Assembly (NCBI RefSeq): GCF_000372885.1
Contig: NZ_KB889967.1
Location: 2,228,655-2,292,654 of the forward strand
DNA length: 64,000 nt
Direction: 5' to 3'
Origin: Methyloversatilis thermotolerans
GTDB lineage: Bacteria; Pseudomonadota; Gammaproteobacteria; Burkholderiales; Rhodocyclaceae
Positions 8,591-11,917 of this stretch are shown here, piece after piece; position 1 is the first letter of the stretch; every line of letters begins with the position of its first letter. The translations under genes and the position numbers were made by a program. Under the pieces are notes generated by a model. The model saw only the letters and a program-made list of their open reading frames with translations. It did no database searches and was not told the origin of the DNA.

Positions 8591-9383
8591 GAAACCCGCC
8601 GCGCGCAAGGTCAGCGCACAGCGCCGCGAGGACGGCGGCCTGTGGGACAGCCCGCGCGCACTGACCCTGATCGCCGACGCGATACTGCTGCTGGCGAGCG
8701 TCGCCATCGGCTACGCGGCGGTGGTCTTCGTCACCCGCATGCCGGTCATGCCGCTGCAGGCGGTCACGCTCACGCGCGCACCGGCCAACCTGAGCAGCGC
8801 GCAGATCGAAGACGCCGCGCGGCGCGCAGTGAATGGCAGCTTCCTGACCACGGACATCGAACGCGCGCGCAGCGTATTCGAAAGCCTGCCCTGGGTGCGC
8901 CACGCGTCGGTGCGTCGCGTCTGGCCGGGCTCGCTCGAGATCGAGCTGGAAGAGCATGTACCGGTGGCGCGCTGGTGGGTACCCGACAACGCGCCGCCAC
9001 GCATGGTGAATGCGCAGGGCGAGCTGTTCTTCGCGGAACACGAAGCATCTCTGCCGCTGTTCGCGGGCCCCGACGAGCGCTCCTCGACCATGCTCGCACG
9101 GCACATCGAATGGACCGGCACGCTGGCACCGCTGCACCGGCAGATCCGCAAACTCACACTGACCCGGCGCGAGGCATGGCAGGTGCAGCTCGACGACGGC
9201 GCGCGGCTCGAGCTGGGACGCGACGACGACAAGCTGCCGATCGCCGAGCGCCTGGAACGCTATGTCGCGACACAGCCGGAGGTCCTGCAACACAGGGACC
9301 AGAAGGTGATCTACGCCGATCTGCGTTACCCGAATGGCTACGCACTGCGCTTGAGCAATACCGAACACCAGGAAAAACCATGA
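8583..9383 (+). CDS. ftsQ: Cell division protein FtsQ
   Basis: 266 aa bitopic inner-membrane divisome protein that scaffolds FtsB/FtsL and recruits later division proteins. A short cytoplasmic tail of about 30 residues is followed by one TM helix (about 33-53), the POTRA-like domain beginning at [12 protein letters not shown], and the FtsQ beta domain. The best start is a TTG inside the end of ddlB; no ATG precedes the TM helix in frame, and a later start would remove part of that helix. The TTG start and 8-nt overlap suggest low, coupled translation. Confidence 0.9.
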
Positions 9384-10609
9384 CAAGAGACAGCAAAGAC
9401 CTCATCGTCGGTCTCGACATAGGCACCTCGAAAATATCGGCGGTCGTGAGTCAGCTCGCGCCGGACGGACGGCTGGACATCCTCGGCCTGGCGTCGCAGG
9501 AGGCGCAGGGTCTGAAGAAGGGCGTCGTGGTGAACATCGAAGCCACGGTCGATTCCATCTCGCGCGTCATCCAGGAGGTGGAACTGCAGGCCGACTGCAA
9601 AGTGCGTGAGGTGTTCACCGGCATCGCCGGCAGCCACATCCGCAGCTTCAACTCGAATGGCGTGGTGGCGATCAAGGACAAGGAAGTCACCCGTCTTGAT
9701 CTCGAACGCGTCGTCGAGACGGCGCGCGCGATGCCGATTCCCGCCGATCAGGAAATCCTGCATACGCTGACGCAGGAATTCATCATCGACGGACAGGACG
9801 GCGTGCGTGAGCCGATAGGCATGAGCGGGAAGCGGCTCGAGGTGCGCGTACATATCGTGACCGGCGCAGTGTCGGCGGCGCAGAACATCATCAAATGCGT
9901 GCGCCGTTGCGGACTGGAGGTCGTGGACCTCGTCCTGCAGCCGCTGGCCTCCAGTCAGGCCACCCTGTCCGAGGACGAGAAGGATCTCGGCGTTTGCCTG
10001 GTCGACATCGGTGGAGGCACCACCGACATCGCCATCTTCACCCAGGGCGCCATCCGCCACACGGCGGTCATCCCGATCGCCGGTGACCAGATCACCAACG
10101 ACATCGCGATGGCACTGCGCACGCCGACGGCCGAGGCCGAGGACATCAAGCTGCGCTACGGCGTGGCGATGTCGGCGCTGGCCGACGCCGAGGACATGAT
10201 CGAAGTCCCGGGCATCGGCGATCGTGGTCCGCGCCGCATGTCGCGCCAGGCGCTGGCCGACGTGATCGAGCCCCGGGTGTCGGAACTTTTCGAGCTGGTA
10301 CAGGCGGAACTGCGCCGCAGCGGCTACGAGGAACTGCTGTCGTCCGGCGTCGTGCTGACCGGCGGGAGCGCGACCATGCGCGGCATGACCGACCTGGCGG
10401 AGGATGTGTTCCATCTGCCGTCGCGCGTCGGCGTCCCCGAGTACAGCGGAAACCTGGCGGACGTGGTGCGCCACCCGCGCTACGCGACCGTGATCGGGCT
10501 GGTGATGGAAGGCGCTGCACAGCGACGCCGGGGTCAGGTGGCGCGCGAGACGCGCAATGTCCGTCAGGTGCTGGCGAACATGCGCTCGTGGTTCGAAAGA
10601 AATTTCTGA
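9380..10609 (+). CDS. ftsA: Cell division protein FtsA
   Basis: 409 aa actin-fold ATPase that tethers FtsZ filaments to the membrane. The phosphate-1 motif IVGLDIGTSKISA is at residues about 9-21, phosphate-2 is LVDIGGGTTDIAIF, and the adenosine motif is VVLTGGSATMRG. The last residues (VRQVLANMRSWFERNF) form the expected amphipathic membrane-targeting helix. It overlaps ftsQ as ATGA. After it the overlapping gene chain stops and about 150 nt of regulatory sequence precede ftsZ. Confidence 0.97.
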   Translation: MTRDSKDLIVGLDIGTSKISAVVSQLAPDGRLDILGLASQEAQGLKKGVVVNIEATVDSISRVIQEVELQADCKVREVFTGIAGSHIRSFNSNGVVAIKDKEVTRLDLERVVETARAMPIPADQEILHTLTQEFIIDGQDGVREPIGMSGKRLEVRVHIVTGAVSAAQNIIKCVRRCGLEVVDLVLQPLASSQATLSEDEKDLGVCLVDIGGGTTDIAIFTQGAIRHTAVIPIAGDQITNDIAMALRTPTAEAEDIKLRYGVAMSALADAEDMIEVPGIGDRGPRRMSRQALADVIEPRVSELFELVQAELRRSGYEELLSSGVVLTGGSATMRGMTDLAEDVFHLPSRVGVPEYSGNLADVVRHPRYATVIGLVMEGAAQRRRGQVARETRNVRQVLANMRSWFERNF

Positions 10610-10756
10610 AATTGCGGCGCAGACGGCATTTACGGCATGCGTTGCACTAAGTTTAGTCGTATACTCGCGATAAATCACTAAATCTAGTGCTGACGCGGGT
10701 TTTCTGCCGAAAGAGTCATCCGGCTCTGCGGCATTCGTGCAAACAGGAGGGCGGGT
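10610..10756 (+). promoter_or_regulatory. ftsZ leader with two NrdR-box-like palindromes
   Basis: This 147-nt gap is much more AT-rich than its surroundings around 10640-10690. It carries two 16-nt palindromes: GCACTAAGTTTAGTCG (10644-10659) and TCACTAAATCTAGTGC (10675-10690). Their centres are 31 bp apart, about three helical turns. From memory, the published NrdR box is acaCwAtATaTwGtgt, usually in pairs at this distance; both copies keep the C-w-A...T-w-G core. A possible -10 hexamer TATACT (10660-10665) lies directly between them, with no convincing -35. A ribosome site (CAGGAGGG, 10745-10752) precedes the ATG. Confidence 0.6.
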
Positions 10757-11917
10757 ATGTTCGAGATTCTCGACAAGGAGCCGGTAGGCGCAGTGATCAA
10801 GGTGATCGGCGTCGGTGGAGCCGGAGGCAATGCGGTCGATCACATGATTCGTGAAGGCGTGAATGGCGTCGAATTCATCGCTGCCAACACGGACGGCATG
10901 GCTCTGAACCGCAACCTGGCCCCGGTCAAGATCCAGCTCGGCAAGAACGGCCGCGGCGCAGGTGCCAAGCCGGAAGTGGGCCGCTCCGCCGCCGAGGAAT
11001 ACCGCGAACACATCGCTGACCAGTTGCGTGGTGCCGAAATGGTGTTCATCACCGCTGGCATGGGAGGCGGCACCGGCACCGGGGCCGCACCCATCGTCGC
11101 CGAGGTGGCCAAGGAGATGGGCATCCTCACCGTCGCCGTCGTCACCAAGCCGTTCGACTACGAGAATCGCATGCGCGCGGCGGAATCCGGCATCGAGGAA
11201 CTGGCCCGCCACGTCGATTCCCTCATCGTCGTGCTGAACGAGAAGCTGATGGAAGTGCTCGGCGAGGACGCCAGTCTGGAGGACGGCTTCAAGGCGGCCG
11301 ACAATGTGCTGCGCAACGCGGTCGGCGGCATCGCGGAAATCATCAACATCCCGGGCCTGGTTAACGTCGACTTCCAGGACGTGCGTACCGTGATGGGTGA
11401 GATGGGCCGCGCCATGATGGGTTCGGCCGAGGCGGCGGGCATGGACCGCGCCCGCATCGCAGCCGAACAGGCCGTCGCCAGTCCGCTGCTGGAGGGCGTC
11501 GAGCTGTCCGGCGCGCGCGGCGTGCTGGTGAACATCACTGCGAGCCGTTCGCTGAAGATGAAGGAAGTGAAGGACGCGATGGAAACCGTGCGCGCCTTTG
11601 CCGCCGAAGGCGCCCATGTCATCTTCGGCACCGTGTTCGACGATGCGATGGACGACCGGCTGCGCGTGACCGTGGTCGCCACCGGCCTGGGCGCACCGCG
11701 CGCGATGAGCAGCAAGCCGCCGATGACCATCATCCGCACCGGCACCGACGACGTCGCCATGTCGGCCGGTACCGGCACCGACTATTCACACCTCGAGATC
11801 CCTGCAGTGATGCGCGGGCGCGGCGGCCGCACCGCATCCAGCGCAGTCGAGGCGATGCGCGCCAATGGCGTGGAGACGCTGGACATCCCGGCCTTCCTGC
11901 GCAAGCAGGCCGACTGA
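10757..11917 (+). CDS. ftsZ: Cell division GTPase FtsZ
   Basis: 386 aa tubulin homologue that forms the Z ring. The GTP-binding signature GGGTGTGAAP is at residues 103-112, the T7 loop is NVDFQDV, and the C-terminal conserved peptide LDIPAFLRKQ, which binds FtsA, is complete. A linker of about 50 residues precedes it. The gene has its own upstream regulatory region, unlike the overlapping genes before it, so expression can be set independently of ftsQA. Confidence 0.98.
   Translation: MFEILDKEPVGAVIKVIGVGGAGGNAVDHMIREGVNGVEFIAANTDGMALNRNLAPVKIQLGKNGRGAGAKPEVGRSAAEEYREHIADQLRGAEMVFITAGMGGGTGTGAAPIVAEVAKEMGILTVAVVTKPFDYENRMRAAESGIEELARHVDSLIVVLNEKLMEVLGEDASLEDGFKAADNVLRNAVGGIAEIINIPGLVNVDFQDVRTVMGEMGRAMMGSAEAAGMDRARIAAEQAVASPLLEGVELSGARGVLVNITASRSLKMKEVKDAMETVRAFAAEGAHVIFGTVFDDAMDDRLRVTVVATGLGAPRAMSSKPPMTIIRTGTDDVAMSAGTGTDYSHLEIPAVMRGRGGRTASSAVEAMRANGVETLDIPAFLRKQAD

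Follow-up and report, generated by a model that had tools for sequence, protein, structure and literature searches.

Outside the SOS response, it is largely an open question how bacteria match cell division to DNA synthesis. The gap between ftsA and ftsZ of Methyloversatilis thermotolerans, located in the 64-kb stretch of DNA analysed here (the window), raises this question in a concrete form. An earlier note on this DNA pointed to two palindromes at 10644-10690, with centres 31 bp apart and flanking a TATACT, which in core and three-turn spacing resemble the paired NrdR boxes of ribonucleotide reductase (RNR) genes. Is this pair an operator for NrdR? Judged from the sequence comparisons reported below, we think it very probable that the pair truly serves NrdR as an operator and that ftsZ of this genus belongs to the NrdR regulon together with nrdA(B), being repressed by dATP-loaded NrdR. 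One sensor of the dNTP supply then probably controls both ftsZ and nrdA in this beta-proteobacterial genus. If true, the operator before ftsZ would represent a one-step coupling in this lineage, in which the nucleotide ratio that sets dNTP production also sets the dose of the division ring, and NrdR could no longer be viewed as a repressor of RNR genes only.

Two palindromes in the ftsA-ftsZ gap

Both genes bordering the gap are encoded on the plus strand. The upstream neighbour ftsA (9380..10609, 409 aa), named by eye and from the gene order, lies in an open frame of 8642-10609 whose start was placed at 9380; its stop ends at 10609, 34 nt ahead of the first palindrome. The presumed target ftsZ (10757..11917, 386 aa) is an open reading frame that scores over the cut-off of NCBIfam TIGR00065 and has homologues in 41 out of 41 relatives. 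By eye, a probable ribosome binding site AGGAGG precedes it at 10745..10750 (plus strand).

The predicted NrdR box 1, GCACTAAGTTTAGTCG, covers 10644..10659 and the predicted box 2, TCACTAAATCTAGTGC, covers 10675..10690 (no strand is assigned to either), exactly at the coordinates first given for them. Both are 16-bp palindromes whose cores are exact ACTAN4TAGT sequences, in box 1 with ACTA at 10646-10649 and TAGT at 10654-10657. They are separated by a spacer of 15 bp (10660..10674, plus strand) which begins with the putative -10 TATACT (10660-10665), and their centres are 31 bp apart. The key C and G are 9 positions apart inside each box (C10647/G10656 and C10678/G10687) and 31 positions apart between the boxes. 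A further hexamer, CGTTGC (10640..10645, plus strand), shares its last two bases with the first two of box 1. The centre of box 1 has G-T instead of A-T; the nrdA box of the same genome, GCACTATAGGTAGTGG, likewise deviates at its centre. From box 2 to the ATG of ftsZ at 10757 there are 66 nt, similar to the 74 nt between box 2 and the ATG at nrdA.

According to the accessible part of PMC12051234, NrdR needs two boxes, a single box being left unbound, and accepts spacers of 14-17 bp, with 15-17 bp as the best range. The conserved C/G pair in each box corresponds to positions 9/18 and 40/49, which are contacted by residues 15 and 17 of the repressor (excerpts of PMC9110341). The ftsZ site, with two palindromes, a 15-bp spacer and the C and G in both boxes, follows these published sequence rules, and the likeness to paired NrdR boxes is borne out to this extent. 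A sigma-70 scan returned no promoter with a -35 matching TATACT at the normal distance, and the ftsZ promoter between the boxes is therefore a putative one.

The position of the boxes also bears on the direction of control. The gene topA of Pseudomonas aeruginosa, which like ftsZ has been put forward as an NrdR target although it is no RNR gene, is reportedly activated by NrdR (PMC4409342, available in part), and NrdR might in the same way bind in the ftsA-ftsZ gap and activate ftsZ. We consider this most improbable, because boxes straddling the putative -10 represent the arrangement of a repressor. Moreover, topA has a single box whereas ftsZ has the full pair in repressor geometry, and the topA claim itself is questioned in the accessible part of PMC12051234.

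Occurrence of the pair in the genome

The two ftsZ boxes are the sole exact ACTAN4TAGT boxes in the window. A search of the whole 4.16-Mb genome for ACTAN4TAGT-N19-ACTAN4TAGT, in which up to 3 mismatches were tolerated, gave just two places, nrdA and ftsZ, both with 0 mismatches, while a reversed control pattern gave 6 matches per strand in the same search. By chance, 4.16 Mb of DNA should contain 3.5e-5 exact pairs with this spacing when calculated from the base composition (65% G+C) and 3.4e-7 under a first-order Markov model.

An NrdR matrix was trained on 17 RNR-adjacent pairs from other genera (0-2 mismatches). With this matrix boxes 1 and 2 score 10.9 and 18.6 at ftsZ (29.4 in total) and 18.4 and 14.7 at the genome's own nrdA (33.1 in total); the next-best pair in the window reaches 0.5 and reuses box 2. 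Taken alone, ftsZ box 1 scores below 31 out of 34 training boxes. The second large-subunit RNR gene of this genome, a class II nrdJ assigned by NCBIfam, has no such box pair. The comparison with the genome's own nrd sites, proposed in the earlier note as a check, thus puts the ftsZ pair on a par with nrdA, both in score and in the absence of mismatches, but finds no counterpart at nrdJ.

Conservation within the genus

The pair before ftsZ is kept in all 13 genomes of the genus that were compared, in 12 of them exactly and in one (G070) with a single mismatch, which falls in box 1; the core of box 2 is exact in 13/13. The nrdA pair is likewise present in all 13 genomes, with exact cores and varying N positions, and the downstream neighbours of the two pairs are constant (nrdA 13/13, ftsZ 13/13). 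Even with the spacing left free between 5 and 35 nt, exact pairs in these genomes occur only at nrdA (13/13) and ftsZ (12/13), always as N19, and the reversed control pattern has no match in any of the 13.

In the alignment of the ftsA-ftsZ gap 15 of the 16 core columns are invariant versus 44 of the 105 remaining columns (Fisher p 7e-5, an optimistic value because the 13 genomes are related), and at the ftsZ pair three of the eight 'N' columns of the motif vary. Identity to the window sequence is 0.61-0.80 in the gap outside the element and 0.87-0.94 within it; the proteins on both sides are 94-98% (FtsA, 12 other genomes) and 95-98% (FtsZ) identical in the genus. TATACT and CGTTGC are also invariant in 13/13. 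Therefore the putative promoter belongs to what is kept, and part of the conservation may serve the promoter.

The fact that some conservation falls outside the boxes could suggest that the palindromes are a chance resemblance inside a conserved promoter. The probability of this is next to negligible: 3.5e-5 perfect pairs are expected per genome and the pair is kept in 13/13, so that a chance origin was rejected on this expectation together with the genome-wide uniqueness and the conservation in the genus.

Two palindromes could also act as an RNA hairpin in read-through transcripts from ftsA to ftsZ, by attenuation or cleavage, instead of as a protein operator. Indeed the site in the window folds at -22 kcal/mol (z -2.85, with 3 of 200 shuffles as good), and several of the elements from other genera described below form long hairpins. 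However, the long stem forms in just two of six sequences folded from the genus (G000 and G118) and is missing from G155, G153, G154 and G070, the box substitutions read from the genus alignment lack compensation, and the conserved -10 would lie within the loop. There is no intrinsic terminator at the site (no T-run), and Rfam gave no match up to E 1. We therefore regard an RNA element as very unlikely here, and hairpin and terminator were both rejected on the grounds that members of the genus do not share the fold, a T-run is missing and no Rfam family fits.

The regulator and its proposed action at ftsZ

All 13 genus genomes encode an NrdR over the curated cut-off, and almost the entire protein is homologous to NrdRs with solved structures, 7P3F among them. 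In the family an nrdR match is found in 148 out of 150 genomes, the two without being G050 and G056. The NrdRs of the genus uniformly have Glu at residue 15 (13/13), for which the relatives read have Asp (17/17), while Arg17 is kept in the NrdRs of the relatives compared at that residue. In Streptomyces coelicolor NrdR both D15 and R17 contact bases; the R17A variant fails to bind, and the D15A variant still binds well, even to boxes that carry mutations (excerpts of PMC9110341). Residue 15 is reported to set DNA specificity, and its natural change in the genus provides a way to study how NrdR acquires targets.

The sequence of the pair, its spacing, its uniqueness, its genus-wide conservation and the presence of nrdR are established. 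Binding of NrdR, the nucleotide switch and repression at ftsZ we infer from the NrdRs studied so far, of which a tetramer loaded with dATP plus ATP or dATP plus ADP binds DNA and an ATP-only dodecamer does not (PMC9110341, available in part). By analogy, a build-up of dATP during slow or stalled DNA synthesis, or a low energy state, would load NrdR with dATP plus ATP or ADP and favour the tetramer. Its two pairs of Zn-ribbons would hold the boxes at their distance of three helical turns, and the bound tetramer would kink the DNA across the -10 and the start site, blocking transcription of ftsZ and nrdA alike. Upon consumption of dNTPs NrdR would carry ATP only and leave the operator, and the supply of FtsZ would rise together with that of dNTPs. 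Such an effect on Z-ring supply would have no known precedent; its physiological size may also depend on read-through from ftsA and on other promoters, which may feed ftsZ as well.

A related element before ftsZ in other genera

Among the family genomes from other genera 144 have an ftsZ match, and 110 of the 144 upstream regions were examined. An exact full pair is present in none of the 110, and one exact box only in G051. Conservation of the palindromes in relatives, the other check proposed in the earlier note, thus holds throughout the genus but not for the full pair beyond it. Deep conservation as a full pair was also rejected for the named ftsZ loci: in 78 of 80, mostly from beta- and gamma-proteobacteria, upstream DNA could be scanned (two have none) and yielded at most 11 of the 16 core matches.

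A half-degenerate form of the element was found in 43 of the 110 regions, from 20 genera. It consists of ATTTAGT followed by TArACT and ACTArAT in a register of 31 or 32, and about 43-112 nt lie between the end of its second core and the ftsZ match. Because the search rule was TTTAG plus an ACTA-like word, the invariance of these words is built in, and the key C of box 2 and the key G of box 1 are uninformative. Features outside the rule are the AT flanking both half-sites, conserved in 95-100%, and the -10 TA..T, present in 36/36 aligned sequences. The outer half of box 1 agrees with ACTA in 1.11 of 4 positions, no better than shifted frames, and has the key C in 50% of the 43 regions; the outer half of box 2 agrees with TAGT in 1.9 of 4 (best shifted frame 1.79) and has the key G in 87%. 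With the NrdR matrix 30 of the 43 element regions beat all 200 shuffles versus one of the 67 element-free regions, a difference which the selection of the regions favours and which is no independent test.

By the search rule 67 of the 110 regions are element-free, though nrdR is nearly universal. These include G050 and G056, which lack nrdR, and 65 regions from genomes with nrdR, so that the absence of the element in the former two says little.

The RNR promoters of relatives (read in 30 out of 41 genomes) give a different picture from the ftsZ element. A pair scoring above 20 is present in 17 out of 21 nrdA regions (not in G108, G139, G094 and G047) and in three out of nine nrdJ regions, the other six having one strong and one weak box. 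RNR promoters in element-bearing genera still use the canonical NrdR motif. Since the ftsZ element outside the genus keeps mainly the inner half-sites, the full NrdR form before ftsZ is a genus trait among the sampled genomes.

As a separate observation, the nrdJ promoters of six relatives combine one perfect NrdR box with a much weaker second box in a 30-32-bp register.

The half-degenerate element can be read in a second way, namely as an ancestral dyad TATTTAGT-N19-ACTAAATA straddling the -10 in about 21 genera and bound by a regulator dedicated to ftsZ, whose half-site coincides with that of NrdR; the genus would then have drifted to the full pair. In its favour, 43 genomes from 20 genera keep the inner half-sites and TArACT while the outer halves are degenerate. 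The outer arms are also complementary to each other beyond shuffled pairs, although the excess is weak (k8-12, 1.88 vs 1.44, 33/2000). In addition, a search with up to 2 mismatches in 22 other-genus genomes located the element at ftsZ in 20 and in a single other case, some 400 nt ahead of an nrdJ match (G011); its fixed-spacing pattern misses elements one base longer, such as those at ftsZ of G011 and G036. No wider regulon is visible, and a separate regulon for the element was rejected, as nothing beyond these sites appeared in the 22 genomes. Nevertheless we consider a dedicated regulator unlikely, because the genus has all 16 NrdR core positions in 12 of 13 genomes and 15 of them in the remaining one, matching nrdA, and because the key G of box 2 is so widely kept outside the genus. 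The matrix scores of the 30 regions point in the same direction, though the matrix favours the very half-sites by which the regions were chosen, and there is no candidate protein.

Some elements from other genera fold into long hairpins (G110 at -27.4 kcal/mol), and together with the complementary outer arms this suggests that outside the genus the element may serve another binder or have a role in RNA. Extending the NrdR reading to these genera is possible, without our leaning towards it: NrdR could be a dATP-sensing, SOS-independent brake on Z-ring supply across about 21 genera of the family, with the half-degenerate operators as weaker NrdR sites and the genus operator perfected along with the Asp15-to-Glu change.

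Comparison with known systems

The NrdR regulon known from nrdAB, nrdJ, nrdDG and nrdHIEF (accessible parts of PMC9110341, PMC12051234 and PMC12176259) shares with the ftsZ site the two 16-bp palindromes, the 15-bp spacer, the three-turn register, the C and G in each box, the placement of the boxes around a putative promoter and an nrdR in the genome, here accompanied by a matching nrdA site. The ftsZ site differs in that the target is not an RNR gene, that box 1 has the G-T centre and that residue 15 of the repressor is Glu rather than Asp. In Streptomyces WhiA connects division genes and nrdR within one network, as might be the case for ftsZ here; however, WhiA binds before nrdR and ftsW, and NrdR there is not described as a regulator of division genes (excerpts of PMC3781837).

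In the titles and abstract openings of the literature matches listed we found no description of NrdR controlling ftsZ, in keeping with the earlier note, which knew of no such link. The main text of a study that reconstructs NrdR regulons for 186 genomes contains no mention of ftsZ (PMC5343134), and in the accessible part of PMC4898720 FtsZ is named once, in a sentence on an interaction network.

A pair of NrdR boxes with 0-2 mismatches also lies between ampD and a histone-H1-like gene in nine genomes from other genera (order checked in 9/9; the AmpD and HC2/H1-like assignments are family matches for part of the nine loci). Eight of these loci were extended, and their 1.7 to 6.9 kb of downstream DNA contained no match to the NrdA of the window genome. 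In the window genome the pair occupies the same place after ampD (identified by eye) and is followed by nrdA. Judged from these sites, NrdR may control the gene of a histone-H1-like nucleoid protein in those nine genomes.
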